DNA of 64,000 bases from Sphingomonas bisphenolicum. Lineage in GTDB: Bacteria > Pseudomonadota > Alphaproteobacteria > Sphingomonadales > Sphingomonadaceae. This document shows positions 31,534 to 50,532 of the stretch, piece after piece. Location: the NCBI RefSeq assembly GCF_024349785.1, contig NZ_AP018817.1:2139501-2203500 (forward strand), written 5' to 3'. A program made the translations under genes and the position numbers. Within the stretch, counting starts at the first letter, position 1. The number at the start of each line of letters is the position of its first letter. The notes under the pieces are model-generated. The model was not told the DNA's origin, did not search any database, and saw only the letters and a list, made by a program, of their open reading frames with translations.

Positions 31534-33786
31534 ATGATTTTCAGCTTTAAAACATCCTCCGCGCTGGGCGCGATCATCGCCGTGATGGCGGCTGCCCCCG
31601 CCTTTGCGCAGGCCGATCAGCCAGCCCCGCAACAGGCCGCACAACAAGATGCTCTGTTCCCGGAAGATATCGTCGTCACTGCCGAGCGTCGCGAATCGAC
31701 GGTGCGTGAAGTGCCCTTTTCGATTGCAGCCTTTGGCGGCGAACTGCTGCGCGAGGCGCAGGTCTACAGCCCGGCCGCCCTGACGCAGCAGATGCCCGGC
31801 ATCACCGTCAACACCGCCGACAAGTCGCTGTCGATCGTCGCGATCCGCGGCAATGTGTCGACCTTCCGTACCGCCACGCTCGATACGCCGGTCGCCTATT
31901 TCATGGACGACGTCTATTATGTGTTCAACAACGATCTGAACGCGAATTTCTACGACACCGATCGCGTCGAAGTGCTGCGCGGGCCGCAGGGCACCTTGTT
32001 CGGACGCAATGTGGTGGGCGGTGCGATCGCCGTTATCACCAAGAATCCCGACTTCAAGGATGATTATTACGCCCAGATCACCGGCGGCAATGGCGGCTAT
32101 GTGCGCACCGAAGGCATGGTCAACGGCACGCTGGTCGACGACAAGATCGCCGGCCGCTTCGCGTTCAGCACCGAACATAATGACGGCCTGATCGACACGC
32201 CGAACCAGTCGGGCAGCTACGGCAAGTCGGACAGCTATTCGGCGCGCGGCAAATTGCTGTTCCAGCCGACGGACACGCTCAAGATCGTCCTGTCGGGCGA
32301 TTACAGCTATACCAAGGGCAATGGCGGCGCGATCCAGCTCGGCATCGGCGGCAATCAAGTCATCCCCGATACGTTCGGCGATTTCAGCGACGACAAGTGG
32401 ACGAATAACGATTTCGTGGCCTCGCCCTATCGCCAGCGTCTGCGCGGCGGCTATTTGCGCGGCGACCTCGATCTGCTGGGCGGCACGCTGACGTCGATCA
32501 CCGGCTATCGCATGAACGACAGCCGCGCGATCAACGACGACGTGCCGGTTGGCACCGAAGTTCCCGTGTTCGACCGCCGCCAGGTGGTGAAAAACCGCAG
32601 CTTCACGCAGGAAGTCCGCTTCGCCTCGGCGCCGGGCCGCTTCTCCTATGTGGTCGGGGCCTATTTCCTGTCGGCCGATGTTTCGACCACCAACATCTTC
32701 TTCTACAGCCCGCTGCCGGGTTCGGCGGTCAATGCCAGCGTCCGGCGCAATCCGGACGTGACCAACATCACCCGCGTCCAGGAAGGCAATGTCCGCAGCC
32801 TGGCCGTGTTCGGCGAAGCGACCTTCGAGATCACCGACAAGCTGGCCGTCGTTGCAGGCGGCCGCTACACATCGGACCGCAAGAAGATCGACTATCACGC
32901 TTTCTCGACCACCGACGCCGGCGCGATCCCGGGCTTCGGCTTCCCCGGCGAGGTGTTCGCGTCGGGCGGCAAGACCTGGGACGCCTTCACCCCGCGCTTC
33001 ACGCTGAAGTTCGAGCCGATGGACAAGGTCAACATGTATGCGACCTATGCCAAGGGCTTCAAGTCGGGCGGCTTCGTCGACAATGCCTATCGCAACCCGA
33101 CCATCCCGCTGGAACCGGAAAAGGCCGAGAATTACGAGATCGGCGCCAAGTCGCGGCTGTTCGACAACAAGCTGGACCTGAACGTCGCGCTGTTCCGGCA
33201 AACGACCAAGAACCTCCAGAATTTCTCCGGCGCGGGCGGTATCGCGCATACCTATAACGGCACGCTCAAGATGAAGGGGCTGGAGGTCGAATCCGTGATC
33301 CGTCCGGTCGAGGATCTGCGCCTGACCGCCAACTACACGCATCTGGTCGGCAAATATACGTCGCTGCGCGATCCGCTGGTGAACCTCGATTATTCGGGCA
33401 ACCCGGCCAAGTTCGCGCCGCGCGACAGCTTCACCGTGGGTGCGGCCTATACCGGGCGCCTGGGCAATGGCGCGACGCTGACGCCGCAGGCGGACTTCAA
33501 CTTCTCCACCCGCATCTCGACCGATGATGCGAACACGCTGCGCCTCTACGACAATCTGCACGAGGATACCCGCGGGCGGACGCTCAATGCACGGCTCAAT
33601 TACGAGACGGCGGACGGGCGGTTCCAGATCGGCTTGTGGGGCAAGAACCTCACCAACAACTATCAGATCGTCAATGCGGACGACATCACCGCCTTCCTCG
33701 CGGTGCCCGGCAACGGCACGACCTATTGGAAGATCTTCACCAACACGCCGCGGACCTACGGCCTGACGCTGTCGTTCCGTCACTAA
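31534..33786 (+). CDS. TonB-dependent outer-membrane receptor
   Basis: The 750-aa receptor has a signal peptide (MAAAPAFAQ cleavage region), a TonB box-like DIVVTAERRESTVREVP, a plug domain (LTQQMPGITVNT, DRVEVLRGPQGTLFGRN) and a barrel ending LTLSFRH. This shorter, FecA/CirA-like form is the kind greatly expanded in aromatic-degrading sphingomonads, and differs from the 977-aa sugar-type receptor at 9.3 kb. GGGAGAG precedes the ATG. It is divergent from the Rieske operon, and the shared operator suggests that it imports the substrate of that operon. A terminator follows the stop by 8 bp. Confidence 0.93.
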   Translation: MIFSFKTSSALGAIIAVMAAAPAFAQADQPAPQQAAQQDALFPEDIVVTAERRESTVREVPFSIAAFGGELLREAQVYSPAALTQQMPGITVNTADKSLSIVAIRGNVSTFRTATLDTPVAYFMDDVYYVFNNDLNANFYDTDRVEVLRGPQGTLFGRNVVGGAIAVITKNPDFKDDYYAQITGGNGGYVRTEGMVNGTLVDDKIAGRFAFSTEHNDGLIDTPNQSGSYGKSDSYSARGKLLFQPTDTLKIVLSGDYSYTKGNGGAIQLGIGGNQVIPDTFGDFSDDKWTNNDFVASPYRQRLRGGYLRGDLDLLGGTLTSITGYRMNDSRAINDDVPVGTEVPVFDRRQVVKNRSFTQEVRFASAPGRFSYVVGAYFLSADVSTTNIFFYSPLPGSAVNASVRRNPDVTNITRVQEGNVRSLAVFGEATFEITDKLAVVAGGRYTSDRKKIDYHAFSTTDAGAIPGFGFPGEVFASGGKTWDAFTPRFTLKFEPMDKVNMYATYAKGFKSGGFVDNAYRNPTIPLEPEKAENYEIGAKSRLFDNKLDLNVALFRQTTKNLQNFSGAGGIAHTYNGTLKMKGLEVESVIRPVEDLRLTANYTHLVGKYTSLRDPLVNLDYSGNPAKFAPRDSFTVGAAYTGRLGNGATLTPQADFNFSTRISTDDANTLRLYDNLHEDTRGRTLNARLNYETADGRFQIGLWGKNLTNNYQIVNADDITAFLAVPGNGTTYWKIFTNTPRTYGLTLSFRH

Positions 33787-33794: not shown

Positions 33795-33824
33795 GCGGGG
33801 AGGGCGATGCCTTCCCCGCTTTTT
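33795..33824 (+). terminator. Rho-independent terminator after the TonB receptor gene
   Basis: GCGGGGAGG pairs with CCTTCCCCGC (one bulged base), followed by TTTTT at 33820-33824. It lies between the receptor stop and the SDR start, so the SDR gene probably has its own weak promoter or depends on read-through. Confidence 0.8.
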
Positions 33825-33849
33825 CTTTTGCCAGTTTCAGGACGGACCT

Positions 33850-34629: not shown

Positions 34630-34774
34630 TCCCGCTTTGCCATATTCATTTCCCGCTTTTCTTATGGCTTTATGGGATTGCGATTGGCGGTTCGGTACCG
34701 GGCATCCATAATCATGCCCAACAATAGGGTAGCGCCGGAGCGATGCACCGCCCGGCCGGACAATGGAGAGCAGC

Positions 34775-35818: not shown

Positions 35819-35828
35819 CGGTCTTCAT

Positions 35829-35859
35829 GCCCTCCGTTCGCAACGAATGGAGGGCGTTT
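35829..35859 (+). terminator. Probable terminator hairpin after the VanA-type gene
   Basis: GCCCTCCGTTCG (35829-35840) pairs with CGAATGGAGGGC (35844-35855) around CAA, with one G-T pair. GTTTC follows. The stem is strong but the T-run is short. Confidence 0.6.
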
Positions 35860-35922
35860 CCATTGCGTATGGCCTGCACATAGCGGCTTGCTCCGTTCGA
35901 TCCGCCATGCTGTAGCGTCATC

Positions 35923-36665
35923 ATGAAGATGCGCGAACTGGAAGAGCGGACCGGAGTCCATCGCGAGACGATCCGCGTCTATCTGCGCGAAGGATTGATT
36001 CCAGAGCCGGCTCGCCCCGCAAAACCGTCGCCGACTATGGTGAGGAACATGTGCAGGCGATCCTGGCGGTGCGGCGGTTGCAGCGCGAAAACCGGCTGAC
36101 GCTGGCGCAGATCAAGGCGATCATCGGTGGCGAGGGGACCGAGGGGCGGGTCGAGGCCAGCGCCTTCGATCAACTCGAGCAACTGGTCGCGCATCGCGTG
36201 GGCGTGGACGGGCCGCCTGTCACCATCGCCTCGCTGCTGGAACGCTATCCCCATGCGGTGGAAGACGCCCGGACGCTGGCGAAGATCGGCATTCTTGACA
36301 TCATCGAAACGGAGCAGGGCAAGGCGCTGAGCATTACCTGTGCGCAGTTGGTCCGTATCTGGGGCGACATGCGCAAGGCCGGGTTCGACCAGCGGCTGGA
36401 CTATACGCCAGACATCCTCGGCTTCTATACCGAAGCTGCCGATTTTGTCGGCCGTTGGGAAGCCGTCACCTTCATGGAACGGGTCGAGGGCCATATCGAT
36501 GTCGGACAGGCCGCGACCATGGTGGAACATGCGTTGCCGCTGATGCTCGATTTCTTCGGCCTGATGCGTCAGCGCGCCTTCTTCCGCCATGTCGACGCAA
36601 TCCGTGCTGGCAGGGAAACGGAGCGTCCCGACGAGACGGTCAAACCGTCCGCCGCTCAGCATTGA
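35923..36665 (+). pseudogene. MerR-family regulator interrupted by a single-base frameshift
   Basis: The N-terminal frame from ATG 35923 encodes a MerR HTH start (MKMRELEERTGVHRETIRVY, LREGLIPEPARP). Homology then jumps to another frame (KTVADYGEEHVQAILAVRRL onward) that continues to the stop at 36665. The two join if one C is added to the CCCC run at 36015-36018. The joined protein would be about 247 aa, with a large C-terminal effector-type domain. This is either a real inactivating deletion, a phase-variable tract, or a sequencing error. The downstream frame lacks most of the HTH, so it could not bind DNA alone. It precedes the P450 cluster on the same strand and could be its local regulator. 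Confidence 0.75.
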
Positions 36666-37001
36666 CGTCAGCCGCGGGGGCGGTTTTGCCCCTCGACGGA
36701 TTGCGTATCGTTAATCGTTAGTTCCCCGGCGATGGCTTGGTCGTTGATGGGCAGGTTGCTTGTCGCCGTCCATTTTCAGGCCCTTCGGCTCATTCAATCT
36801 GTGGACGAGCATTCAGTTTTTGGGACATGGCGATGCCATTCTCAGTGGTAAAATACTGTAATAAAATGGTTTTTATTTCAGGATTGCCAAATAGTCCGAA
36901 CGATTTTTGTGATTGACGACTCTCTCCATCCATAGTTACGTAAATGGCATACGCAATGCGCAGAGATCCTTTAGGGCGGCGTAGCAGGAGAGGGTAGTTC
37001 C
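36666..37001. other. AT-richer intergenic region before the P450 gene
   Basis: This 336-bp stretch contains no supported gene. Its centre (about 36830-36950) is clearly AT-richer than the rest of the window. A TTGACG at 36913 is followed by the palindrome TTACGTAA at 36936-36943, and GCATACGCAATGC lies nearby, but no good -10 box is in register. The region probably holds the promoter of the P450 operon. AGGAGAGG at the end is the P450 ribosome site. Confidence 0.5.
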
Positions 37002-38303
37002 ATGGCGACTTCGCTGGATGCCGATGTGCGTCCGATCATTCCCGATGACATCGCCCGCGTCGTGATCGCACCGAAAAGCTATACGGACGACGCCACCATC
37101 TATGGTGCGTTCCGGTGGCTGCGGGAGCATATGCCGCTGGGGATCGCGCAGGTTCCGGGCTATGATCCGATCTGGGTCGTCACCAAACATGCCGACATCA
37201 AGGAAGTGGAGCGCAACGGCAAGCTGTTCCACAATGCCGATCACAACCCGATCCTGGTCGATCAGGCGTCCGACGCTTTTACGCGGGAGATCAATGGCGG
37301 GTCGCTGCGCATATTGTCGTCCCTCACCTATATGGACCCGCCCGAACATGCGTCTTACCGCACGCTGACTTCCAACTGGTTCCTGCCGGGCAAGATCAGC
37401 AAGCTGGAGGAACAGATCCGCGTGCTGGCGCGCCAGTCGGTCGACAATCTGCTGAGCTTCGACGGAGAATGCGATTTCGTCCGCGACTTCGCGCTCCATT
37501 ATCCGCTGCGCGTCATCATGACCCTGTTCGGCGTGCCGCCAGAGGACGAGCCGCGGATGCTCAAGCTGACGCAGGAATTTTTCGGCGTGCATGATCCCGA
37601 GGAACAGCGGCCCGAAATGGCGGCCGATCCGGTGGTGGCGGCGAAGCAATGGGCGGCCTCGATCGAAGATTTCTACGTCTATTTCGACAAGCTGAGCGCG
37701 GCGCGGCGCGAGCAGCCCACCGACGACCTGCTGTCGCTGATCGCCAACTCGCGGATCAACGGCGCGCCGATCCCGCGCGACGAGGCGAACGGCTATTATG
37801 TCGCGATCGCCACCGCCGGGCATGACACGACATCGTCGTCCACCGCAGGCGGGCTGCACGGGATGATGGTCTATCCGGAGAATTGGGCGAAGGTGAAGGC
37901 GGACCCGTCGCTGATCCCCGGCCTGGTGGACGAGGCGATCCGCTGGACCAGCCCGGTCAAGCATTTCATGCGCAACGCCACCGCCGATACGCAGGTGCGC
38001 GGCATGGACATCCGCGCGATGGACCGGCTGATGATCTGCTACCCATCGGGCAATCGCGACGAGGCGGTGTTCGCCGATGCCGACCGGTTCGACATCACGC
38101 GTTCGCCCAATCCGCACATCGCCTTCGGTTTCGGCCCGCATATGTGCCTGGGCCAGCATCTCGCCAAGCTGGAGATGCGCATATTGTTCGAGGAATTGTT
38201 GCCGCATCTGGAATCGGTCGAACTGGCGGGCGATCCGCGGCTGGTCGAGACCAATTTCGTCGGCGGCTACAAGGCGCTGCCGATCCGCTTCAAGAAAAGC
38301 TGA
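37002..38303 (+). CDS. Cytochrome P450
   Basis: The 433-aa soluble bacterial P450 has the I-helix motif AGHDTTSS, ExxR in DEAIRW, and the heme-binding loop FGFGPHMCLGQ with Cys382 as axial ligand. The start (IVAPKSY-like VVIAPKSYTDD, WVVTKHADIKEVE) and the C-terminal NFVGGYKALPIRF resemble CYP108/CYP124/CYP125-type enzymes that hydroxylate terpenoid, branched or steroid side chains. AGGAGAGG lies upstream. No ferredoxin or ferredoxin reductase is in the window. It leads the + strand block and probably makes the first hydroxylation of the pathway. The CYP subfamily and substrate are inferred. Confidence 0.93.
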   Translation: MATSLDADVRPIIPDDIARVVIAPKSYTDDATIYGAFRWLREHMPLGIAQVPGYDPIWVVTKHADIKEVERNGKLFHNADHNPILVDQASDAFTREINGGSLRILSSLTYMDPPEHASYRTLTSNWFLPGKISKLEEQIRVLARQSVDNLLSFDGECDFVRDFALHYPLRVIMTLFGVPPEDEPRMLKLTQEFFGVHDPEEQRPEMAADPVVAAKQWAASIEDFYVYFDKLSAARREQPTDDLLSLIANSRINGAPIPRDEANGYYVAIATAGHDTTSSSTAGGLHGMMVYPENWAKVKADPSLIPGLVDEAIRWTSPVKHFMRNATADTQVRGMDIRAMDRLMICYPSGNRDEAVFADADRFDITRSPNPHIAFGFGPHMCLGQHLAKLEMRILFEELLPHLESVELAGDPRLVETNFVGGYKALPIRFKKS

Positions 38304-38318
38304 ACCCTCTCCCCCTGG

Positions 38319-38344
38319 GCCGCGCCCTGCAAGGCGGGCGCGGC
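38319..38344 (+). terminator. Hairpin between the P450 and aldehyde dehydrogenase genes
   Basis: GCCGCGCCC (38319-38327) pairs perfectly with GGGCGCGGC (38336-38344) across an 8-base loop. TCCTTCTT follows rather than a pure T-run. It may be a partial terminator or a stability hairpin that sets the ratio of the two proteins. Confidence 0.45.
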
Positions 38345-38372
38345 TCCTTCTTATCAACTGGAGACATGGCCC

Positions 38373-39881
38373 ATGAATGCACCCTCAACGATCGCCGCCG
38401 GACTGCACGGCGAAAAGGGGCATGAAGTCCGCCTGCCGCAGCAGAAGATGCTGATCGGCGGGTCGTGGGACGCGGCCGGGGACGGTCGCACCATCGACGT
38501 GGAAGACCCGGCGACGGGACAGGTGTTCGCCAGCGTTCCGGCGGGTAGCGCCGTGGATGTGGACCGGGCCGTGACAAAGGCGCGCGCCGCGTTCGAGTCT
38601 GCCGTCTGGGCGCGGATGCGGCCGCTCGATCGCGGCAAGATCATCGAGGCGATCGCCCGCAAGATCGAGGATCATGCGCAGGAACTGGCGCTGCTCGAAA
38701 GCTATGACAACGGCAAGGCGGTGCATCATGCGCTGGCCGTGGACGTGCCGGCCGCCGTCGACATCTTCCGCTACATGGCGGGCTGGGCGTCGAAAATCTA
38801 TGGGCAGGTGAACCCGATTTCGGGCGATGGCCGCCAATATCACAGCTATTCCGTGCGCGAACCGATCGGCGTCGTCGGCCAGATCGTGCCGTGGAATTAT
38901 CCGCTGGCGATGGCGGCGTGGAAGATCGCGTCGGCGCTGGCGGCGGGTTGCACCATCGTGCTGAAACCCTCCGAAGTGACGCCGCTGACTGCGCTGCGCC
39001 TGGCCGAACTGGCGCTGGAGGCCGGGCTGCCCGAAGGCGTGCTCAACATCGTCACCGGCTATGGCCATGAGGCGGGGCAGGCGCTGGTCGAGCATCCCGG
39101 CATCGACAAGATCGCCTTCACCGGATCGACCCGCGTGGGCAAGCAGATCGTCCAGACGGCGGCGAAGGATCTGAAGCGCGTCACGCTGGAACTGGGCGGC
39201 AAGTCGCCCTCGCTGATCTTCGCCGATGCGGATATCGAGAAGGCCAGCATCGGCGCTGCGCTCGCCATCTTCTTCAATTCTGGGCAGGTGTGCCTCGCGG
39301 CCTCGCGCCTCTATGTCGAGCGATCGGTGTTCGACAAGGTGGTGGATGGCGTTGCGCAGGTCGCCAAGAGCTTCAAGCTGGGCCATGGCCGCGATCCCGA
39401 CACAATGCTGGGGCCGCTGGTGTCGAAGGTGCAGCAGGGCCGGGTACTGGACTATATCGCGCAGGGCAAGGCGAGTGGCGCGGACCTCGTCACCGGCGGC
39501 GGGACGGGCGATCGGGACGGCTATTTCGTCGAGCCGACGATCTTCGCCAATCCCGACGCTGACGCCAGCATCGTGCGGGAGGAGATTTTCGGCCCGGTGC
39601 TGGTGGCGACCCCGTTTGACGATGTGGACGATGTCGTCCGCCAAGCCAATGACACCCGCTATGGCCTGGCCGCCAATATCTGGACCCGCGATCTGTCGCG
39701 CGCCCACCTGACCGCGCGCAAGCTGCAGGCCGGGACGGTGTGGATCAACACCCATGGCATGAATGATCCGTCCGCGCCCTTTGGCGGCGTCAAGGAATCC
39801 GGCTGGGGTCGCGAGGTCGGTGAGGAGGGCGTGCTTCATTATACCGAAACCAAGACGGTGACGGCGCTGCTGGACGATTGA
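38373..39881 (+). CDS. Aldehyde dehydrogenase, NAD-dependent
   Basis: The 502-aa enzyme shows PWNYPLAMAAWK, FTGSTRVGKQI, LELGGKSPS with the catalytic Glu, NSGQVCLAASRLYV with the catalytic Cys, and EEIFGPVLVATPF. It is closer to betaine/phenylacetaldehyde-type dehydrogenases than to the one at 24.3 kb. The gene follows the P450 gene by 69 bp with GGAGAC upstream. Oxidation of an aldehyde formed from the P450 product (for example via the zinc alcohol dehydrogenase at 46.7 kb) is the likely role. Confidence 0.93.
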   Translation: MNAPSTIAAGLHGEKGHEVRLPQQKMLIGGSWDAAGDGRTIDVEDPATGQVFASVPAGSAVDVDRAVTKARAAFESAVWARMRPLDRGKIIEAIARKIEDHAQELALLESYDNGKAVHHALAVDVPAAVDIFRYMAGWASKIYGQVNPISGDGRQYHSYSVREPIGVVGQIVPWNYPLAMAAWKIASALAAGCTIVLKPSEVTPLTALRLAELALEAGLPEGVLNIVTGYGHEAGQALVEHPGIDKIAFTGSTRVGKQIVQTAAKDLKRVTLELGGKSPSLIFADADIEKASIGAALAIFFNSGQVCLAASRLYVERSVFDKVVDGVAQVAKSFKLGHGRDPDTMLGPLVSKVQQGRVLDYIAQGKASGADLVTGGGTGDRDGYFVEPTIFANPDADASIVREEIFGPVLVATPFDDVDDVVRQANDTRYGLAANIWTRDLSRAHLTARKLQAGTVWINTHGMNDPSAPFGGVKESGWGREVGEEGVLHYTETKTVTALLDD

Positions 39882-39918
39882 GGCCAATCAAAACAAAAAT
39901 CGCGGCGGGAGGATGGCA

Positions 39919-40860
39919 ATGGAAAGGATGAGCATGACGGCACTCACCAACGTTTACATGACCGAAAATTGTGAGCGTCATATTCCCAATCCGGCCATCT
40001 GCAAATGGAACCAGAGCTACTATTTTAACTTCTACGACCGGCAGGCGAAACTGGGTGGCTTCATCCGCTTCGGGTTCATGGAGAATATGGGCGAAACCAA
40101 TGGCTTCGCAATTTTCTTCATGGACGGAAAGCCGCTGTTCACCCGCATCAACATGAATCTTCCCTACACCAGGGACCGTCCAGATGGTGGGGTGACCGTG
40201 GCGGGCGTGCGCCTTGAGGCGATAAAGCCGTTGCAAACCTGCCGGATCACGATCGACACCGAGGATTTCGGCGTCGACCTGAGCTGGGATCAGCGCTTCC
40301 CGATGGGCGACAGTATCGTTCCGGGGAACGAGGACGATGCGATCGCACGCGAACTGGCCTATATCCATCTGGAAGGCGTGTGCGACGTCACGGGCACGGT
40401 GCGCCTGCGCACCGGGCAGACCATCACGATCAAGGATGCGGGCTTTCGCGACGTCAGCTGCGGCCCGCGCAATTGGGCGGGAGTGCAGCATTACCGGCTG
40501 GCATGGCCGATCTTCGACAATGGCATGTCCTGCGTTGCGGTCCACGCCATCACCGAGCAGGGCGAGGGCTATCAGAAGATTCTGCACGACGGGCAGCGCT
40601 GGCATCATATCGGCCGGGTCGAGGAAGTGATCGAATACGAGCCCGACGAGATGGGCTTCAAACATGTCCACTGGAAGGTGTGGGACGAGGATGAACGGCT
40701 GTGGGAGTTCACCGCCAAGCCGTTGTTCCGCTGGCAATTTCCCTTCGACAGTTTCGTGATGGTCGAACAGATGATGGAATATCGGCTAAGCGACGGGACG
40801 GTTGGCTACGGCATGGGCGAAGGCGGCTTCCGCTTTCCCTGGGAAGGCAATGGCAATTGA
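39919..40860 (+). CDS. CrtC/AttH-like (DUF7064/DUF7065-type) protein, cassette copy A
   Basis: This 313-aa protein is beta-rich and soluble, with no signal peptide and no known catalytic motif. It shows the pattern of hydroxyneurosporene synthase/AttH-like two-lobed lipocalin-fold proteins, with the conserved central FRDVSCGPRNWAG followed by YRLAWPIFDNG. Its paralogue at 42.6 kb has RDHSWGPRVWG at the same place. ATG 39919 is six bases after GGGAGG. ATG 39913 abuts that ribosome site and ATG 39934 is a further option. It forms the first gene of a three-gene cassette with the kinase and small helical protein. Hydration or isomerisation of a hydrophobic substrate is a guess from the fold family only. 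Confidence 0.72.
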   Translation: MERMSMTALTNVYMTENCERHIPNPAICKWNQSYYFNFYDRQAKLGGFIRFGFMENMGETNGFAIFFMDGKPLFTRINMNLPYTRDRPDGGVTVAGVRLEAIKPLQTCRITIDTEDFGVDLSWDQRFPMGDSIVPGNEDDAIARELAYIHLEGVCDVTGTVRLRTGQTITIKDAGFRDVSCGPRNWAGVQHYRLAWPIFDNGMSCVAVHAITEQGEGYQKILHDGQRWHHIGRVEEVIEYEPDEMGFKHVHWKVWDEDERLWEFTAKPLFRWQFPFDSFVMVEQMMEYRLSDGTVGYGMGEGGFRFPWEGNGN

Positions 40861-40861
40861 C

Positions 40862-42043
40862 ATGAGCGAGATCATCGACGCGCCGTCGATCGACAGGATC
40901 GATATCTGGAACCGCGACGACATGGAGCCGCGCATCCGGGAGATACTCGACAGGACCGTGCGGGACCGGGCGAAAGGCCCCTATGCAGCGAAGACCGATA
41001 GCGAGGTCATCGCCATGCTGGAGGATTATTTCGCCAGGACCGAAGGGCTGGAAGCCATCGGCATTTCCGATGTATCGCGCATGGCGGGCGGCGCTTCGAA
41101 GGAGCAGTTCGCCTTCACCTTGCGGCACAGGGAGGACGCGGCGGGGGAGCGGCTGGTGCTGCGCATGGACCCGCTGGAGGCGATTTCGCAGACCTGTCGC
41201 GGGCGCGAGGCGCAGGTGCATGTCGCCTTTGCCGACATATTGCCGGTCGCATCGGTCCGCAGCATCGATGCGGACGGCGAAATAATGGGCCAGCCGGCGA
41301 TCATCCTGGGCTTCGTCAACGGCGTGACCGAGCCGAGCGAAGGCACGGGACATGGCGTGTCGGGCATTGGCACGCGCTATGACGATTGGGCGGACAAACT
41401 GGCCCCCCAATTTATCGACGCGCTGGCGCAGGTGCATCGGTTCGACTGGCGTTCCGCCGACTTGTCCTATTATGCGGCGCCCGAAGCGGGGACGCGACAG
41501 GCCGCGATCTGGCAGGTCAACTGGTGGTCGCAGGTCTGGTGGGACGGCGTCGTCCAGCCGGTCGCGATGGTGACTTATGCCGAACGCTGGCTGCGCGAAC
41601 ATGCACCGGTCTGCGACGCGCCCGTCATGTGCCACAGCGATCTGCGGCTGGGCAATTTCATGTTCGAGGAACCAAGCGGCAAGTTCACCGCCGTACTGGA
41701 CTGGGAACTGGCGCATATCGGGGATTTCCACGAGGATATCGCCTGGGCCATCCAGCGCCTTTTTGGCACCTGGACGGACGACGGCACCTTCCTGGTGTGC
41801 GGGCTGATCGCGCGGGACGAGTTCCTGCGCGCCTATGAAGCCGCGTCCGGCAACCGCATCGATCCGGTGAAACTGCGCTATTATGAGGTGCTCAACGCCT
41901 ATAAATGCGCGGTGATCGACCTGGGCCAGGCGATGCGCGCCGCGACGCAGAGCAATAATCACCAGGATATCATCCTCACCTGGCTTGGCTCAGCCGGCGC
42001 CGTGTTCCTGGAACAACTCGTCATGCTCATTCGGGAGGCCTGA
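40862..42043 (+). CDS. APH-fold phosphotransferase (ACAD10/11- and LvaA-like kinase), copy A
   Basis: The 393-aa kinase of the aminoglycoside phosphotransferase fold has the catalytic loop CHSDLRLGN (His258, Asp260, Asn265) and the metal-binding Asp280 in VLDWELAHIGD. The N-lobe has GGASKEQFAF and LVLRMDP. The VLR form is typical of the kinases fused to acyl-CoA dehydrogenases ACAD10/11 and of LvaA, which phosphorylate 4-hydroxyacyl-CoA. ATG 40862 follows the previous stop by one base, and ATG 40850 is possible. The small protein follows after 3 bp. Phosphorylation of a hydroxylated acyl-CoA is the inference. No acyl-CoA dehydrogenase domain is fused. Confidence 0.85.
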   Translation: MSEIIDAPSIDRIDIWNRDDMEPRIREILDRTVRDRAKGPYAAKTDSEVIAMLEDYFARTEGLEAIGISDVSRMAGGASKEQFAFTLRHREDAAGERLVLRMDPLEAISQTCRGREAQVHVAFADILPVASVRSIDADGEIMGQPAIILGFVNGVTEPSEGTGHGVSGIGTRYDDWADKLAPQFIDALAQVHRFDWRSADLSYYAAPEAGTRQAAIWQVNWWSQVWWDGVVQPVAMVTYAERWLREHAPVCDAPVMCHSDLRLGNFMFEEPSGKFTAVLDWELAHIGDFHEDIAWAIQRLFGTWTDDGTFLVCGLIARDEFLRAYEAASGNRIDPVKLRYYEVLNAYKCAVIDLGQAMRAATQSNNHQDIILTWLGSAGAVFLEQLVMLIREA

Positions 42044-42046
42044 CCC

Positions 42047-42559
42047 ATGCTGCCCAATATCGACCTGCGCATCGCGAATATGATCAAGGCGCTGGAGCAG
42101 GTGGTCCTGCCCGCGCTGCCGCGCGACCAGCGCCTGGCCCGCGATCAGGCCATGCTGGTGGCCGGCCATTTGCGCATGATGGGCGAACAGTGGAAGTCTG
42201 CGCTTCGTTACGAGCAGGTGGCGCTCGACGATTTACAGGGACTGGCCCGGCATTTGCTGCCCGATGCGCCGGCATTGCTGGCGGACGATCTGAAAGCCGC
42301 GCTGTCCATGGCGCAGGCGTGCGATCGCGTCAGCGTGACCGCGATCGAGCGGGCCAATATCGACCTTGGCCACGCCGTCGATGCGGTCATCCTTGGCGGA
42401 AAGGATCATGCGCCGCTGCCGCCGGAATCGATCGACGCGCTGCTTAACTATGCGCTGCGTCATGCCCGGCGGGAGCGAAGCTGGTTCAAGGCCAATCGGC
42501 TCGATCCCGACCAGCATGACCTGCCTGACCTGGAGACGATGCTGGCTGAAGCCGACTGA
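42047..42559 (+). CDS. Small helical partner of the APH-fold kinase (LvaB/DUF6285-like), copy A
   Basis: This 170-aa, probably all-helical protein starts MLPNIDLRIANMIKALEQVV followed by LPAL. The pattern of an N-terminal helix ending in VLPAL resembles the LvaB-type/DUF6285 proteins encoded beside LvaA-like kinases, which are needed for activity of LvaA. It lies 3 bp after its kinase, and the same junction (TGACCC then ATG) occurs in copy B. Its likely role is as a kinase subunit. LvaB itself is shorter (about 110 aa), so the C-terminal 60 residues are extra. Confidence 0.68.
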   Translation: MLPNIDLRIANMIKALEQVVLPALPRDQRLARDQAMLVAGHLRMMGEQWKSALRYEQVALDDLQGLARHLLPDAPALLADDLKAALSMAQACDRVSVTAIERANIDLGHAVDAVILGGKDHAPLPPESIDALLNYALRHARRERSWFKANRLDPDQHDLPDLETMLAEAD

Positions 42560-42601
42560 CGACCCCAGCCGAAGAACAGAAAATAGAAGGAGACGTCGAA
42601 G

Positions 42602-43531
42602 ATGCCTGAGACCGCCGAGCCGTTCGCCGACTATCCCGTGCAAAATGCCTATCGCCACAAACTGGCGGAAGACGGCCGGGAATCGGCGACCCATCAGTTC
42701 GTCCTGCCGCAATATGGCATTGCCGGCTTCTATTATCCTACCGTGCGCGCCAACGGCCATGCCAAGGGACGCCTCCACCTCTTCGGACCCGGCCTGAGTG
42801 CGCCGATCGAAGAGGAGGTCGAGCAGATGGTGTCGGAGGACATGGACTTTGACGACTGGCGCTTCGGCCCCCTGTTGATGGCCGTGCGCGAGCCGTTCAA
42901 GACGATCGATCTGGGCTGGGTCGGCGATCGCATCCAGTTCGAAGGACAATGGAGCGCGATCCATCCGCCCTATGCCTTCAGTATGCATCCCAAGGGCAAT
43001 CCGCCCTATTATGGCGACGATCGCACCGAACAGCATGGCAGGATCAAGGGCAATCTGCGTATCGACGGCAAGGATTTCGCGCTCAACGACTTCATGATCC
43101 GCGATCATAGCTGGGGGCCACGCGTCTGGGGCCTCAACCAGCATTATAAATGGTTCCACGCGACCACCCCGAGCGTGTCGGTGCATTTCTTCGAGATGAT
43201 GTCGTTCGGCAAGGTCGAAACGCGCGGCTATCTCTTCAAGGACGGCGTCATGCAGCATGTCCAGAGCATCGACTATGACATCGATTATGACGAAGACATG
43301 ATGCAGGAGCGCTTCCGCGTCACTGTCACTGACAGCGACGGGCGGTCGGTCTTCGTCGATTGCCAGGCTTTCGCGACATATCAGCTCGACCTGGACCCGA
43401 TCGTCCTGCTGAACGAAGCCGTGGTGACGGCCACGATCGACGGCGAACAGGGCACCGGCTGGTGCGAATTCTGCTGGAATCGCGACTATCTCAAATTCGC
43501 CAAGCCCTATGTCCGGCGCTTCGCCTGGTGA
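42602..43531 (+). CDS. CrtC/AttH-like (DUF7064/DUF7065-type) protein, cassette copy B
   Basis: The 309-aa paralogue of the 39.9-kb gene product has the diagnostic RDHSWGPRVWGLNQHYKW in the centre and YGDDRTEQHGRIKG before it. It has no signal peptide. Copy B keeps the His/Trp form of the motif (DHSWGPR) while copy A has DVSCGPR, so the two may have diverged in activity. AGGAGA precedes the ATG. Its stop overlaps an ATG at 43531, close to the next kinase start. Function is unknown. See copy A for fold reasoning. Confidence 0.75.
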   Translation: MPETAEPFADYPVQNAYRHKLAEDGRESATHQFVLPQYGIAGFYYPTVRANGHAKGRLHLFGPGLSAPIEEEVEQMVSEDMDFDDWRFGPLLMAVREPFKTIDLGWVGDRIQFEGQWSAIHPPYAFSMHPKGNPPYYGDDRTEQHGRIKGNLRIDGKDFALNDFMIRDHSWGPRVWGLNQHYKWFHATTPSVSVHFFEMMSFGKVETRGYLFKDGVMQHVQSIDYDIDYDEDMMQERFRVTVTDSDGRSVFVDCQAFATYQLDLDPIVLLNEAVVTATIDGEQGTGWCEFCWNRDYLKFAKPYVRRFAW

Positions 43532-43545
43532 TGGAGGATATCGCC

Positions 43546-44718
43546 ATGCAGGTGACGCCTGCCCGCAGCGGGGACGTGGACGTCTGGGACCGGTCCGAGA
43601 TGGAGCCGCGCATCCGCCATATTCTGGAACGGACGGTCCGCTTGCGCGATACCGGTCCCTACCGGCCAAAGTCCGACGCCGAGGTGACGGCGATGCTCAC
43701 CGGCTTCTTCGCGGCGAAGGGCCTGGAGGGGATTGCGATCACCGACGTCGAGCGCATGTCGGGCGGCGCATCGAAGGAACAGTTCGCCTTCACGCTAACC
43801 CATCGCGAAACCCCGCAGGGCGAACGGCTGGTGCTGCGGATGGACCCGCTGGAGGCGATCGCCCAGACCTGTCGCGGCCGGGAAGGGGAAATCCAGTCGA
43901 TCATGGGAAACCACATGCCGGTCGCGCCGGTGCGGTGGTTCGATGCCGATGGCGACCTGCTGGGACAGCCTGCGGTCATCCTGGGTTTCGTGCGCGGCGT
44001 GACGCAGCCGAGCGAGGGCGGGAGTGGCGGCGTTTCCGGTATGGGGGGACGGCTGGGCAGCCTGATCGACCGGCTGGCGCCGCAATATATCGACGCGCTT
44101 GCCACCACCCATCGCTTCGACTGGTCGCGCGCGCATCTGCGCTTTTTCGATGCGCCACGCGCCGACAGCAATCAGGCGGCGATCTGGCAGGTCAACTGGT
44201 GGTCGCAGGTCTGGTGGGATTGCCTGGTGGAGCCGGTGCCGGTCGTGGCCCTTGCGGAGCGATGGCTGCGCGAGAACGCCCCGCTGTGCGACCGGCCGAT
44301 GCTGGTGCATGGCGACCTGCGCATGGGCAATTTCATGTTCGAGGAACCGAGCGGGACGTTCACGGCCGTCCTCGACTGGGAACTCGCGCATATCGGCGAT
44401 TTCCACGAGGATATCGCCTGGACCATGCAGAAACTGTTCGGGGCCTGGGGCGACGATGGCGTTTTCCTGGTCAGCGGACTTTTGCCCCGCGACGACTTCA
44501 TTGCGCAATATCAGGCCGCTTCGGGGAATCGGATCGACCCGGTCAGGCTGCATTATTATGAAGTGCTGAACGCCTATAAATGCGCGGTCATGGACCTGGG
44601 GCAGGCCATGCGCGCCTCGATCGCCAGCAACAACCATCAGGAAGTCGTGTTGACCTGGCTGGGCTCTGCCGGGGCCGTCTTCCTGAGCCATATCGTCCAA
44701 CTGATCCGGAAGGGCTGA
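43546..44718 (+). CDS. APH-fold phosphotransferase (ACAD10/11- and LvaA-like kinase), copy B
   Basis: The 390-aa kinase is closely related to copy A over its whole length. The catalytic loop is VHGDLRMGN (His255, Asp257, Asn262), the metal Asp is Asp277 in VLDWELAHIGD, and the N-lobe has GGASKEQFAF and LVLRMDP. Both copies share IWQVNWWSQVWWD, which is unusual for APH kinases and may shape the substrate pocket. ATG 43546 is eight bases after GGAGG. ATG 43531 overlapping the previous stop is the alternative. Retention of all catalytic residues in both copies argues for two active enzymes with different acyl-CoA substrates. Confidence 0.86.
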   Translation: MQVTPARSGDVDVWDRSEMEPRIRHILERTVRLRDTGPYRPKSDAEVTAMLTGFFAAKGLEGIAITDVERMSGGASKEQFAFTLTHRETPQGERLVLRMDPLEAIAQTCRGREGEIQSIMGNHMPVAPVRWFDADGDLLGQPAVILGFVRGVTQPSEGGSGGVSGMGGRLGSLIDRLAPQYIDALATTHRFDWSRAHLRFFDAPRADSNQAAIWQVNWWSQVWWDCLVEPVPVVALAERWLRENAPLCDRPMLVHGDLRMGNFMFEEPSGTFTAVLDWELAHIGDFHEDIAWTMQKLFGAWGDDGVFLVSGLLPRDDFIAQYQAASGNRIDPVRLHYYEVLNAYKCAVMDLGQAMRASIASNNHQEVVLTWLGSAGAVFLSHIVQLIRKG

Positions 44719-44721
44719 CCC

Positions 44722-45228
44722 ATGCTGCCGAGTATCGATCTGCGCATCGCGAACATCATCAAGGCGCTGGAACAGGTGGTCCTGCCGGCGCTGACCGGGC
44801 GCGAGCGGCTCGCCAAGGACCAGGTCAATCTGTGCATCGGCCATTTGCAGATGATCGCGCATCAATGGCGATGGGCGGCGGCATTCGAGGCCGGTTCCTT
44901 TCAAGCCATGATCGCGTTGGCGGAGGAGATGGAGCCTTCGGTCGATAGCAGCTATGCCGAGGAACTGACGCAGGCGATCGCGTCGGCGAAGGCGGTGGAC
45001 GGGCAGGATCTGGCGGCCGTGGAACATGCCATCGTCGCGCTGGGCGGCCTGATCGACCGCATCATCCTGGGCGAGGATGGCAAGGTGGTGCTGGCGCCCG
45101 CCGTCTGGGAGGCGGTGCTGGGCTATGGCGAGAAGCAGGCGTTGCGCGAACGGACATGGTTCGCCGCCACCGGCCTCGACCCCGATCGACGGGAGCTGCC
45201 GAGCATCGCGGCGATGATGGCGGGATGA
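44722..45228 (+). CDS. Small helical partner of the APH-fold kinase (LvaB/DUF6285-like), copy B
   Basis: The 168-aa protein is a paralogue of the 42.0-kb gene product, with an almost identical start (MLPSIDLRIANIIKALEQVV then LPAL) and similar length. It begins 3 bp after the kinase stop and ends with a 4-bp overlap (ATGA) into the MmgE/PrpD gene, so the second cassette is translationally tied to that enzyme. It probably supports or targets its kinase. Confidence 0.68.
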   Translation: MLPSIDLRIANIIKALEQVVLPALTGRERLAKDQVNLCIGHLQMIAHQWRWAAAFEAGSFQAMIALAEEMEPSVDSSYAEELTQAIASAKAVDGQDLAAVEHAIVALGGLIDRIILGEDGKVVLAPAVWEAVLGYGEKQALRERTWFAATGLDPDRRELPSIAAMMAG

Positions 45229-46640
45229 AGCACGAAAATCCCGTCCTGCCCGAACATGATCCCGCCGGCGCGCTGGCGCGGATGGTCGCGGACACACGCT
45301 ACGAGGACTTGCCCGCTGGCGTGATCGATCTCGCCAAGCGAGCGATCCTGGACACGCTGGCGGTGACGATCGCGGGGTCGGGCTGGGAGGTCAGCCCCGC
45401 CATCGCCGCGCAGGTCGCGGAATGGGGCGGGGCGCCGCAGGCGACCGTGCTGGTCCACGGGCACAAGGTGCCCGCGCCCATGGCGGCGTTCGCGAACGGG
45501 GTGATGGCCCGCGCCATCGACATGGGCGACGTGCATGAGACGGGCGGTCATGTCACCGAATGGAATGTGCCGGCCATGCTGTCCGTGCTGGGCATCGCCG
45601 CAGGGCCGGTCAGCGGCCGGGATTTCCTGACTGCCTATGTCACCGGGGCGGAAGTGGGCGTGCGCGCCAGCGCGGCGCTCAATCTGGTGCGCTATCATAC
45701 GACCTGGGGTATGCCGGGCGAGTGGAACGGGCCGCTCTGCGCCGCCGCATCGGTCGCGCACATCCTGGGCCTGAACGCCGACGAGACATGGAATGCGATG
45801 GGCATGGCCTATACGGTCCATGGCATGTCGGAATATAATAAATATTCGGAAGGCACGCAGATGGCGCGCGTGCAGCACAGCTTTGCCGGCGATACGGCGG
45901 TCAAGGCGGCGCTGTTGACGCGGCGCGGGGTGACGGCGCCGCGCGGTATATTCCAGGGCGTGCCGAGCGGCATATTGCGGCATGTCGCCTGGGACGATGT
46001 GCGGCCCGAATTGCTGACCGACGATCTGGGCACCCGCTGGCAACTGGCGGAAGGGCTGTCGATGAAGCCCTATTCCGCGTGCAAATTCACCCACAGCTTC
46101 ATTGCCAGCACAGTCGCCATCATACAGGGTCAGGGGCTGGACTGGCGCGACATCGACCGGATCGACTGCGTGGGCAGCAACAGCGCGCGCATGACATTCG
46201 AGCCGGCTGCGGCGAAATGGAACCCGCGCAGCGTCCCAGAAGCCATGTTCAGCGCGCCCTATACGATCGCGACGGCGGCGATCAGCGGTGGCTTTTTCCT
46301 GCAGGACCTGCATGTCGACCGGATCATGGACGAGGAGCGGCGCGCACTGATGCAACGCGTCCACATCATGGCCGATCCCGCCCATGCCGACCAGTTCGAG
46401 GGCTTTCCCGTCACCATCACGCTGACGGATGGACGGCGCTTCACCCATGTCACCCCTTATGTGAAGGGCCATAGCCGCAATCCCATGGACTGGGACGATC
46501 TGGCCGACAAGCTGGGTCGGTGCGCTCCCTTTGCCGCCGTCGCGCTGCCGCAGTCGAAGCTCGACAAGTTGGTCGCGCTCTGCCGCGCCATGGAAGAGGT
46601 GGAGGATATGCGCGACGTCCTGACCTTGATGACCGCCTGA
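45225..46640 (+). CDS. MmgE/PrpD-family protein
   Basis: The 471-aa protein belongs to the 2-methylcitrate dehydratase-like family, cofactor-free hydro-lyases and isomerases acting on di- and tricarboxylic acids. Family features are LAKRAILDTLAVTIAGSG near the N-terminus, NGVMARAIDMGDVH, a central substrate loop WNGPLCAAASVAHILGL and KPYSACKFTHSFI. ATG 45225 overlaps the previous stop by 4 bp. A methylcitrate-cycle role is unlikely because no prpB or prpC is present. A dehydration or decarboxylation within the degradation pathway is more likely. The lower conservation of such family members prevents a firmer call. Confidence 0.85.
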   Translation: MKHENPVLPEHDPAGALARMVADTRYEDLPAGVIDLAKRAILDTLAVTIAGSGWEVSPAIAAQVAEWGGAPQATVLVHGHKVPAPMAAFANGVMARAIDMGDVHETGGHVTEWNVPAMLSVLGIAAGPVSGRDFLTAYVTGAEVGVRASAALNLVRYHTTWGMPGEWNGPLCAAASVAHILGLNADETWNAMGMAYTVHGMSEYNKYSEGTQMARVQHSFAGDTAVKAALLTRRGVTAPRGIFQGVPSGILRHVAWDDVRPELLTDDLGTRWQLAEGLSMKPYSACKFTHSFIASTVAIIQGQGLDWRDIDRIDCVGSNSARMTFEPAAAKWNPRSVPEAMFSAPYTIATAAISGGFFLQDLHVDRIMDEERRALMQRVHIMADPAHADQFEGFPVTITLTDGRRFTHVTPYVKGHSRNPMDWDDLADKLGRCAPFAAVALPQSKLDKLVALCRAMEEVEDMRDVLTLMTA

Positions 46641-46673: not shown

Positions 46674-47768
46674 ATGAAGGCCGCCATTCTCAACAGCCTC
46701 GACGGCACATTCCAGATCGAGGAGATCGACATCGATGCGCCGCGCGGCCGCGAGGTGCTGGTGGAGGTGAAGGCGTCGGGACTGTGTCATTCCGACCTGC
46801 ATTTTGCCGAGCAGGATTTCGGCGTGCCCTTGCCGGCTGTTCTTGGACATGAGCTGGCAGGTGTCGTCCTGGCGATCGGTCCGGAAGTGCGCGAGTTCGT
46901 GGTCGGCGATCATGTGGTGGGGTCGCTGATCCAGTTTTGTGGTCATTGCCGCGCCTGCATTGGTGGGCGGACCTATCAATGCACTCATCCGGAAGAGACG
47001 CTGCGCGACGATCCTGACCATGCGCATCGCCTGACCCGCAATGGCGAGGGGGTCGCGCAGGTCTTCGGCACGGGCGCTTTTGCCGAGCGCGCGCTGGTGC
47101 ATGAAAACCAGCTTGCCAAGGTGCCCAAGGAATTGCCCTTCGCCCAGGCATCGCTGCTGGGTTGCGGGACGATCACCGGCGCTGGCGCGGCCATCAACAC
47201 GGCGTCGGTCCGGCCGGGCGAAACGGTCGCGGTGATCGGCATCGGCGGGGTCGGGCTGAATGTGATTTCCGGGGCGCAACTGGCGGGCGCGGCCCGGATC
47301 GTCGCGATCGACATGCAGCCGAAGAAAGAAGAGCTGGCGCGCAAGTTCGGCGCCACCGACTTCATCGACGCATCCGCAGGCGACAGCGTGGCAGCGGTGC
47401 AAGCGTTGATCGAGGGCGGCGTCGACCACGCATTCGAGGTGGTGGGCATCAAGGCGACGTCGGAACAGGCGATCAAGATGGTTCGCAAGGGCGGCGGCGC
47501 CTATCTGATCGGGGTGCATTCGCCGGCCAATACGATCGACGTCAACGTCACGATCGACCTGCTGACCAACCAGGTCGACCTGCGGGGCGTCTATATGGGG
47601 TCGTCCAATATCAAGCACGACATCCCGATGTACGCCCGGCTGTACCTGGAGGGTAAACTCAATCTGGACGACCTGATTTCGCGCGAGATCAGCCTGTCCG
47701 ATATCAACGACGCCTACAAGGAATTGAAGGGCGGAGCGATCGCGCGCAGCGTCATCACCTCCTTCTAG
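46674..47768 (+). CDS. Zinc-dependent alcohol dehydrogenase (medium-chain, class III/NDMA-like)
   Basis: The 364-aa enzyme oxidises an alcohol with NAD(P)+. The catalytic zinc ligands are in GLCHSDLHFAE and LGHELAG. The structural zinc site is CGHCRACIGGRTYQC. The Rossmann motif is VIGIGGVGLNVISGAQ. ATG 46674 follows GGAGAAC by four bases. The TTG at 46662 is inside the ribosome site region. It ends the + strand block and its stop overlaps by 4 bp the stop of the convergent SnoaL-like gene. It could oxidise the P450-derived alcohol before the aldehyde dehydrogenase at 38.4 kb acts. Confidence 0.92.
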   Translation: MKAAILNSLDGTFQIEEIDIDAPRGREVLVEVKASGLCHSDLHFAEQDFGVPLPAVLGHELAGVVLAIGPEVREFVVGDHVVGSLIQFCGHCRACIGGRTYQCTHPEETLRDDPDHAHRLTRNGEGVAQVFGTGAFAERALVHENQLAKVPKELPFAQASLLGCGTITGAGAAINTASVRPGETVAVIGIGGVGLNVISGAQLAGAARIVAIDMQPKKEELARKFGATDFIDASAGDSVAAVQALIEGGVDHAFEVVGIKATSEQAIKMVRKGGGAYLIGVHSPANTIDVNVTIDLLTNQVDLRGVYMGSSNIKHDIPMYARLYLEGKLNLDDLISREISLSDINDAYKELKGGAIARSVITSF

Positions 47769-48346
47769 GGGCGTTCACGCGGGGCGACGCCATGGCGGGC
47801 GCGACCCCGTTCGCTCATCCGGTCGATATCGCCCGGCCAGAAAGGCGCATCGAAGCCGGCGGTCAGCCTTTCGATGCGCCATGCGCCATCTTCTGGCCGA
47901 TAGTCGGTGCGGTAGAAACCGGTCGTTTCCAGCTTCGCCGCCCGGCCATCCGACGACATCAGCAGCAGATAGCTGAGCGTCGTCGCGCGTTCGGAGGTCT
48001 GTTGTTCCACGATGGTGTTGAGGATCATGTGGCGGCGCTGGTCATGCTGGTGCGGCCAGAATTCGGTCAACCAGCACACGACCCGATCGCGGCCGACAAA
48101 GGGGCCGATCGGAATGCGCCCCAGCACATCGCCTTCCCATATTGCGTCCTGCGTGAAGCAGTCGGCCAGCGCATCGGCGCGGCGCTCGTCATAGGCCCAG
48201 CAGTAGCGTGCGATGCGCTCGCAGATCACTTGCCTGTCCGTCACGCCGTTCGGTCCTTCAGGCGCACGCGCCTCGCCCAGCGCGAGCATACCGGCATGAT
48301 GCGCCCAGCCGGGCATAACGAACGAATCGTTCGATGGTTCACTCAT
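47765..48346 (-). CDS. SnoaL/NTF2-like protein
   Basis: The 193-aa protein has an NTF2-like fold pattern (ERIARYCWAYDERRADALAD, then CFTQDAIWEGD near the N-terminal third, and GFYRTDYRPEDGAWRIERLT near the end). Such proteins are dehydratases, isomerases or binding proteins. No catalytic residue can be fixed from the sequence alone. Its ATG overlaps the SDR stop by 4 bp, making it the last gene of the minus-strand block. It may act on a cyclic or steroid-like intermediate, as SnoaL-like proteins commonly do in such clusters. Confidence 0.8.
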   Translation of the reverse strand: MSEPSNDSFVMPGWAHHAGMLALGEARAPEGPNGVTDRQVICERIARYCWAYDERRADALADCFTQDAIWEGDVLGRIPIGPFVGRDRVVCWLTEFWPHQHDQRRHMILNTIVEQQTSERATTLSYLLLMSSDGRAAKLETTGFYRTDYRPEDGAWRIERLTAGFDAPFWPGDIDRMSERGRARHGVAPRERP

Positions 48347-49308
48347 GATGCAGCGTTCGCGGCGGGAACGCCGAACAGTTTCGGGATAAGAAGGAGTTCG
48401 TCCAGCGTGCTGCGCGGGTCGAGCGCCCCGTCGAGCGAGCGGAGGGTATCCACATTGTCGCGCAGATCTTCCGGGCCATGGTCGGGATTGAAATAGCCTT
48501 CGCCTACGACGAAGCCGACGCGTGCGACCTTGCCCGACGAGACGCTGAAGATGTCACCGTTGAGTGTAGTCGAGCGATGGGCGAGCCATAGCACCGCCGG
48601 CGAGACGATGGCGGGCGGTCCCATCGGTACTTTGCCCGCGCGAATGTCCGCCTGCCAATCGTCGCCGCCTGCGTCCGCGCCGCCGAAAAAGGCGTCGCGA
48701 TTCATGCGGGTGACTGCCATCGGGGCGATGGCGTTGATGGTGATGCCGCTGTCGCCGACCTCGTTCGCCAGCGCCTTGGTGAAGCCCGCTACGCCGAGCT
48801 TCGCGGCGCCGTAATGGACGAGTTGCTCATTGCCCGCGAAGCCGGCGTTGGATGTGGTGTTGACGATGCGGCCATGGCGCTGCGCGACGAAATGGGGCCA
48901 GACCGCCTTCGACATTTGGAAGGTGCCGTCCAGCGTCACGGCGATCATTCGTCGCCAGCCGTCGTCGCTAATATGCTCCAGCGTCGCGAAGTCGATTATG
49001 CCGGCATTGTTGACGAGTATGCTGACCGAGCCGAAGGCATCGAGCGCGGTCCGCACGACGGCGGCGGCGCCCTCCGCGGTAGTGACGCTGTGACTGTCGG
49101 CTACGGCCCGGCCACCGATGGCGACAATCTCATCCACCACCGATTGGGCGACCTGGGTCGATCCACCTAGGCCATCGGGTTCGACGCCGATGTCGTTGAC
49201 CACGACCGCTGCGCCCCGCGCCGCGAAGGCGAGCGCATGTTCGCGACCGAGGCCCCGACCGGCACCGGTGATGATGACGACATCGTGGTCGAAGCGCATC
49301 TGGTTCAT
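48343..49308 (-). CDS. Short-chain dehydrogenase, MFE-2/HSD17B4-like 3-hydroxyacyl-CoA dehydrogenase type
   Basis: The 321-aa SDR is longer than the usual 250. It has the cofactor motif [40 protein letters not shown], the active-site Ser/Tyr/Lys region NTTSNAGFAGNEQLVHYGAAK, and a C-terminal extension. VNDIG after beta-2 and the extension match the dehydrogenase unit of peroxisomal multifunctional enzyme 2, which oxidises 3-hydroxyacyl-CoA of branched or steroid side chains. ATG 49308 follows the thiolase stop by 8 bp. The longer open frame reaching 50343 runs antisense to the thiolase gene. Confidence 0.9.
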   Translation of the reverse strand: MNQMRFDHDVVIITGAGRGLGREHALAFAARGAAVVVNDIGVEPDGLGGSTQVAQSVVDEIVAIGGRAVADSHSVTTAEGAAAVVRTALDAFGSVSILVNNAGIIDFATLEHISDDGWRRMIAVTLDGTFQMSKAVWPHFVAQRHGRIVNTTSNAGFAGNEQLVHYGAAKLGVAGFTKALANEVGDSGITINAIAPMAVTRMNRDAFFGGADAGGDDWQADIRAGKVPMGPPAIVSPAVLWLAHRSTTLNGDIFSVSSGKVARVGFVVGEGYFNPDHGPEDLRDNVDTLRSLDGALDPRSTLDELLLIPKLFGVPAANAAS

Positions 49309-49316
49309 GTGCCGCC

Positions 49317-50519: not shown

Positions 50520-50532
50520 GGACATTCTCTTT

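Follow-up and report, generated by a model that had tools for sequence, protein, structure and literature searches.

Two A-K-B gene trios of Sphingomonas bisphenolicum as putative ATP-dependent dehydratases for tertiary isoprenoid alcohols

Tertiary hydroxyls are not directly oxidisable and block beta-oxidation. Here, we are concerned with a 64,000-nucleotide stretch of the Sphingomonas bisphenolicum genome (contig NZ_AP018817.1, positions 2,139,501 to 2,203,500; hereafter the window), which carries, twice in a row, a trio of genes for a predicted phosphate lyase (A), a kinase (K) and a small partner protein (B). Removal of a hydroxyl by phosphorylation and subsequent expulsion has until now been described for the breakdown of sterols and hydroxy acids. 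In Sterolibacterium denitrificans, the tertiary C25 hydroxyl is phosphorylated by the kinase 25-HSK before a second enzyme, a lyase, gives the alkene (PMC8449060; PMC7411048; PMC11061730). The lyase had yet to be identified in 2021, when the authors of the 25-HSK paper saw no candidate for it in the vicinity of the kinase gene (PMC8449060). A second described pair is LvaA/LvaB, where an APH-family kinase gene is followed directly by that of a small protein in the lva operon; both this pair and ACAD10/11 pass through a phosphorylated intermediate in hydroxyl removal (PMC12440821). The third is the monoterpene island of Castellaniella defragrans 65Phen, which holds two K-B pairs as well as two A genes, with a growth phenotype for one of the latter; it relies on an oxygen-independent limonene dehydrogenase in place of the P450 found here, and its kinases were annotated as acyl-CoA dehydrogenases, whereas A and B were listed as hypothetical proteins (PMC4109377).

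An earlier sequence-only reading had described the locus as a tandemly duplicated cassette of a CrtC/AttH-like protein, an LvaA-like kinase and an LvaB-like partner, possibly removing or moving a hydroxyl on acyl-CoAs. We propose, with a probability of about two in three, that the A-K-B trios act as ATP-dependent dehydratases on a tertiary isoprenoid alcohol, here probably a p-menthane alcohol. K together with the helical B would phosphorylate the tertiary hydroxyl with the gamma-phosphate of ATP, and A would expel the phosphate via a conserved Asp, leaving an alkene. Our own basis is the homology and common fold of A and 25-phosphosteroid lyase (25-PSL), the conservation of the Asp, the membership of K in the APH family, the K-B and A-K-B linkage, and the relation of a neighbouring P450 to P450terp; the 25-HSK chemistry, a Castellaniella mutant and the detection of Castellaniella proteins come from published work.

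The two trios and their gene products

The six genes follow the order A1-K1-B1-A2-K2-B2, all on the plus strand, at 39913-45228 of the window. A1 (39913 or 39928..40860) and A2 (42602..43531) are predicted phosphate lyases with Pfam matches to DUF7065/DUF7064 (PF23213 and PF23212, above cut-off for A1). K1 (40850 or 40862..42043) and K2 (43531 or 43546..44718) are APH-fold small-molecule kinases (PF01636, E 1.9e-22 and 1.8e-22), and B1 (42047..42559) and B2 (44722..45228) are their small partners. At both K-B junctions, the kinase stop, CCC and the ATG of B form the identical nine bases TGACCCATG, confirming the common 3-bp spacing seen in the sequence-only reading. Pairwise identities are 68.4% for the kinases (260/380), 44.3% for the partners (74/167) and 26.2% for A1 and A2 (39/149, C-terminal half only), each with a score higher than any of 100 shuffles gave. 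The genome has no DUF7064 match besides A1 and A2. These two fall into separate clades of an 88-row tree (A2 in clade a, A1 in clade b1) and are thus old relatives and not a recent duplicate pair, although the repeat of the gene order itself is real. The order A-K-B-A-K-B was found again in 6 of 79 genome loci, which were collected with a 16-kinase profile from one genome per species as the best 80 of 554 pattern matches and do not form a census; near-variants are AKKBAKB (L078) and AKBAKK (L084).

The AlphaFold model of A2 (pLDDT 95.2, pTM 0.91) has 25-PSL as its best PDB match by fold; A1 is placed with this lyase type by sequence. A profile of 46 A sequences, including A1 and A2, matched a single protein among the PDB sequences at E<=1, namely 25-PSL (E 3.3e-11 for 9fzn and 3.5e-10 for 9g4c). 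This closest sequence relative is a named lyase, crystallised with phosphate and alkene. The motif RDHSWGPR of A2 holds Asp168, and its counterpart in A1, RDVSCGPR, keeps the Asp and the Arg; this Asp is present in 87 of 88 A proteins. The matching residue in the 9g4c product complex of 25-PSL is Asn, presumably a deliberate variant. We therefore read A1 and A2 as predicted phosphate lyases of the 25-PSL type. Their fold is common to AttH, kievitone hydratase, CghA and Fsa2, from which they differ in that, to our knowledge, no phosphorylated substrate is known for these proteins or for CrtC. Of the earlier CrtC/AttH-like label, the AttH part is upheld by the fold, but CrtC was not among the fold matches listed, and the sole PDB sequence match is 25-PSL. 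Lyases of clades a and b occur together in 16 of the 20 loci with at least two A genes, several of these loci being close relatives, and this co-occurrence suggests complementary roles for the two clades. Two gammaproteobacterial A proteins of an outlying clade (L091:8741-9865 and L093:1924-3048, both on the minus strand) carry DRSWGVR, the exact 25-PSL motif.

Both kinases have the PF01636 domain with the catalytic HxD and LDWE motifs of the APH family. The HxDLxxGN motif and metal Asp noted earlier are present (HSDLRLGN in K1, HGDLRMGN in K2, VLDWELAHIGD in both), as is the unusual shared block IWQVNWWSQVWWD, which is exact in the two L044 kinases and mostly reads QVNWWSRVW in the others of a 16-row alignment. 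K2 is 77% identical to a kinase on pISP1 of Sphingomonas MM-1. The kinases with an adjacent B, K1 among them, group together in a single clade that comprises 12 of 37 rows (support 100/100). For 25-HSK itself, the sequence is WP_154717265.1, and PDB entry 9fsg may be its structure.

The AlphaFold model of B2 (pLDDT 95.3, pTM 0.85) consists of helices only and has no Foldseek match in the PDB at E<=0.001; neither B1 nor B2 has a Pfam match at E<=10. The expected likeness to LvaB did not materialise: PF19802 (LvaB/DUF6285) has no match in the genome at E<=0.001, and hhalign of B against the LvaB profile gave a probability of 2.2-4.4% (E 0.009-0.02 for one comparison). A sequence search found no solved structure of LvaB. 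B would thus be a small kinase-partner family with no detected relative, probably serving as a kinase subunit.

Linkage across genomes and the Castellaniella island

By six-frame translation, B adjoins K in 76 of the 79 loci; the three others are L101, at a contig end, and L123 and L126, where B lies elsewhere in the locus. A is found within 1.5 kb of K on the same strand in 48 loci and anywhere in the locus in 56. K is carried, among others, by Sphingobium, Novosphingobium, Zhongshania, Spongiibacter, Pseudomonas borbori, Castellaniella, Thauera terpenica, Denitromonas, Nevskia, Solimonas, Frankia, Mycobacterium and Gordonia. Plasmid-borne trios occur in Sphingomonas MM-1, two Rhodococcus and Sphingopyxis macrogoltabida, and in MM-1 a one-trio block lies amid IS6100 copies.

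Co-occurrence extends to whole genomes. In the family of genome G396, to which Thauera terpenica (G398) and Denitromonas (G399) belong, K was found at E<=1e-45 in 8 of 395 genomes when up to four candidates were scored in each. DUF7064 is present in all 8 kinase genomes and in none of 60 sampled kinase-free ones (Fisher p 1.4e-10, the genomes not being independent); with all candidates scored, the best kinase match in these 60 had E 4e-37. Among 42 distinct kinase-bearing genomes, part of which were a hard set with 16 of 23 loci lacking A, DUF7064 is present in 35. Four genomes (G393, G383, G396 and G407) hold 9 to 13 DUF7064 matches each, often in dense catabolic islands, and in G393 several of these genes adjoin kinases without B.

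The contig used for C. defragrans is from strain DSM 12141, which we take to be 65Phen. Its A gene at 6522-7544 agrees with CDM25297 in length (1023 bp) and neighbours; the printed lengths of ctmA (1698 bp), ctmB (1650 bp), ctmE (324 bp) and mrcC (888 bp) are matched as well, and the call for mrcF is longer than printed (1449 vs 1239 bp). A second set, K-B-A (CDM25275-25273 by order), lies at 28202-32059 of the L176 contig, directly upstream of ldi, the gene for linalool dehydratase-isomerase, and a further K-B pair corresponds to CDM25241-25240. A mini-Tn5 mutant of CDM25297 could use acetate for growth but neither limonene nor myrcene, and peptides of both kinases were detected only in cells grown on alpha-phellandrene (PMC4109377).

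These results point to a real, conserved module, which is best read as a variant of the 25-HSK/25-PSL kind rather than of the LvaAB module. The former likewise has an APH-type kinase and a lyase that is homologous to A by profile and fold, and the chemistry published for it amounts to dehydration of a tertiary isoprenoid alcohol at the expense of ATP (PMC8449060, PMC7411048). The present module differs in the linkage of kinase and lyase genes, in the B gene that nearly always stands beside the kinase, in the P450terp context, and in the two trios with lyases of different clades.

Substrate context and other readings

The trios lie within a one-strand run with gaps of at most 69 bp. It begins with a P450 (37002..38303, plus strand), a probable oxidase of a terpenoid alcohol, and an aldehyde dehydrogenase (38373..39881, plus; PF00171, E 8e-180), and it ends with an MmgE/PrpD-family protein (45225..46640, plus; PF03972/PF19305), which overlaps the stop of B2 by 4 bp, and a zinc alcohol dehydrogenase (46674..47768, plus; PF08240/PF00107), whose PDB matches are alcohol dehydrogenases. 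The best match of the P450 is P450terp (556 bits to 8euh/1cpt; 249/423, 58.9% identity). By the CYP naming convention, a family comprises sequences of over 40% identity, which would put this P450 with P450terp in CYP108. P450terp (CYP108A1; P450-terp in PDB titles) is the alpha-terpineol hydroxylase of a pseudomonad, and alpha-terpineol is a tertiary alcohol. The most likely substrate in the window would accordingly be a p-menthane alcohol related to alpha-terpineol. The P450 and the two dehydrogenases would oxidise a methyl group of it, and the trio would convert the blocking hydroxy-isopropyl to an isopropenyl group so that beta-oxidation can proceed; that A uses the phosphoester made by K, and that the two trios divide the labour, is equally our inference. 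The cluster looks built for plant terpene breakdown.

Several observations weigh against this dehydratase reading. A and 25-PSL are only about 16% identical, the A1 motif lacks the His, AttH ties with 25-PSL in the fold comparison, and the fold also serves Diels-Alderases and kievitone hydratase. 25-HSK is active alone as a monomer, so B would be dispensable in principle (PMC8449060). In the CDM25297 mutant, the insertion may have polar effects on CDM25298-25300, and Table 2 of PMC4109377 lists no mutant of a K or B gene. Seven of the 42 kinase-bearing genomes (loci L106, L108, L109, L111, L112, L114 and L122, labelled without exception as relatives of sphingomonads or erythrobacters) have no DUF7064 match, and for this reason some K-B pairs in these groups appear to function without A. 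Within the taxonomic order of S. bisphenolicum, DUF7064 is present in no more than 5 of the 10 genomes with K at E<=1e-90, compared with 18 of 386 others (p 8.8e-5). In loci of this order sample, 12 of 40 A genes, 3 of them near a locus end, have no kinase of the wider family within three genes; because the other 28 have one but only 8 have a B, A seems to pair also with kinases that lack B. A genome of the same genus (G263) retains the P450 (96% identity) and the aldehyde dehydrogenase with no trio and has no K or DUF7064 match. Its locus L260 matches the neighbourhood of window 28920-39881 at 91-98% identity without the two trios, the MmgE/PrpD gene and the operon alcohol dehydrogenase; since the flanking genes are there and the trios are not, the block from A1 to the alcohol dehydrogenase appears separable, with L260 as a natural module-minus version. 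Finally, alpha-terpineol dehydratase activity in P. gladioli is ATP-free (PMC4097962), and a Sphingobium converts limonene to alpha-terpineol independently of energy and cofactors (PMC13348398). With such ATP-free hydration and dehydration on record, the ATP-driven route would be one of several for the hydroxy-isopropyl group.

The same kinase-lyase chemistry could act on a sterol side chain, a diterpenoid or a tert-alkyl pollutant, a possibility that overlaps with our proposal, differs from it in substrate only and deserves to be kept in mind, although we regard it as the less likely. The plus-strand genes at 54218-61411 (two thiolase-like proteins, a ChsH2-type OB protein, a metallo-beta-lactamase fold, an enoyl-CoA hydratase and two acyl-CoA dehydrogenases) resemble steroid side-chain enzymes in their SCP2-type/lipid-transfer thiolase matches, the ChsH2-type protein and the paired acyl-CoA dehydrogenases; a Sphingopyxis trio lies near an alkane monooxygenase, and N. 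resinovorum has 9 DUF7064 genes. The operon P450, with its 556 bits to P450terp, scores only about 170-310 bits against the sterol-type CYP125, CYP142 and CYP125MRCA. In another sphingomonad (L089), a K-B pair stands beside an operon closely related to window 54218-60275 (95% for the second thiolase-like protein, 79% for the enoyl-CoA hydratase), an independent link between the downstream operon and K-B.

Two further explanations seem improbable to us, and to a similar degree. If A were an isomerase or hydratase, the trio would shift the hydroxyl from a tertiary to a primary allylic position without elimination, with a phosphatase finishing the reaction in some species. The adjacency of K-B-A to ldi in C. 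defragrans and the fold of kievitone hydratase fit this idea, as does a Y_phosphatase3-type gene near the kinase in 13 of the 79 loci; no such phosphatase was found in the other 66, and the closest relative of A is the lyase crystallised with its products. This tyrosine-phosphatase-family protein (Pfam identity checked for L071, L074, L128 and L147) could recycle wrongly phosphorylated alcohol. If, instead, K and B were an LvaAB-like pair acting on 4-hydroxyacyl-CoA, an acyl-CoA dehydrogenase would remove the phosphate and A would be otherwise employed, e.g., in acyl-CoA binding. In favour of this reading, K, LvaA and the ACAD11 kinase domain are all members of the APH family, the gene order is that of the lva operon, and genes for two acyl-CoA dehydrogenases follow further downstream, at 59085 and 60287. 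They are, however, about 14 kb distant, B has no detectable LvaB homology, A has a solved phosphate-lyase relative of its own, the likely lyase is an AttH-fold protein and not an acyl-CoA dehydrogenase, and LvaA groups apart from K in a 156-row FastTree tree with long branches flagged (LvaA group 7 rows, K clade 115 rows). The kinases are thus not LvaA-like beyond the common family. The notion of a phosphorylation-led hydroxyl removal survives, supported by the kinase family and the lyase homologue, and its 4-hydroxyacyl-CoA version is disfavoured. A detoxification set phosphorylating a xenobiotic, like aminoglycoside or macrolide phosphotransferases, is very improbable. In its favour are weak matches to APH and Mph models, far under their cut-offs; the catabolic operon, the lyase family of A and homologues detected only with a growth substrate all speak against it.

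Among the remaining genes, a TonB-dependent receptor (31534..33786, plus; PF00593/PF07715), probably for uptake, has relatives in 39 of the 79 loci, and the MmgE/PrpD gene recurs in 9 (L076-L084; Sphingobium, Novosphingobium and one metagenome-assembled genome). A minus-strand set at 47765-54007 encodes SnoaL-like, SDR, thiolase, alpha/beta hydrolase, CoA ligase and amidohydrolase proteins. A separate minus-strand set at 24348-31262 comprises an aldehyde dehydrogenase, a GMC oxidoreductase, an MFS transporter, a Fer2 protein and a LigXa-type Rieske oxygenase. Between the latter and the P450, the gene of a MerR-type regulator (~35900-36665, plus) is read partly in one frame and partly in another; L260:7225-7968 encodes an intact homologue of 247 residues. 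The plus-strand genes at 1-18044 (glycoside hydrolase family 3 genes, uronate isomerase, mannitol dehydrogenase, a TonB receptor and putA) serve sugar and proline use, apparently without relation to the trios.

Meaning for terpenoid breakdown

For p-menthane terpenoids, the removal and addition of the hydroxyl have been described as an activity in P. gladioli and with named candidate clusters, but no genes (the latter within the available text for PMC4097962; PMC13348398). The present analysis names candidate genes for clearing the p-menthane tertiary hydroxyl, gives the orphan genes of the Castellaniella monoterpene island a testable function, and places the newly solved 25-PSL in the wide family DUF7064/DUF7065, often genetically tied to kinases. 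It also points out B as a small kinase-partner family. More broadly, and here we see the odds as even, A-K-B may be a general, horizontally spread three-part machine for the ATP-driven dehydration of tertiary isoprenoid alcohols, from monoterpenes to sterols, in aerobes and anaerobes, with B as a new kinase subunit family and the paired a/b lyases giving two regio-outcomes or serving two pathway stages. If true, this would provide a role for CDM25297, a gene that the classical anaerobic limonene degrader needs but that has so far lacked an explanation.

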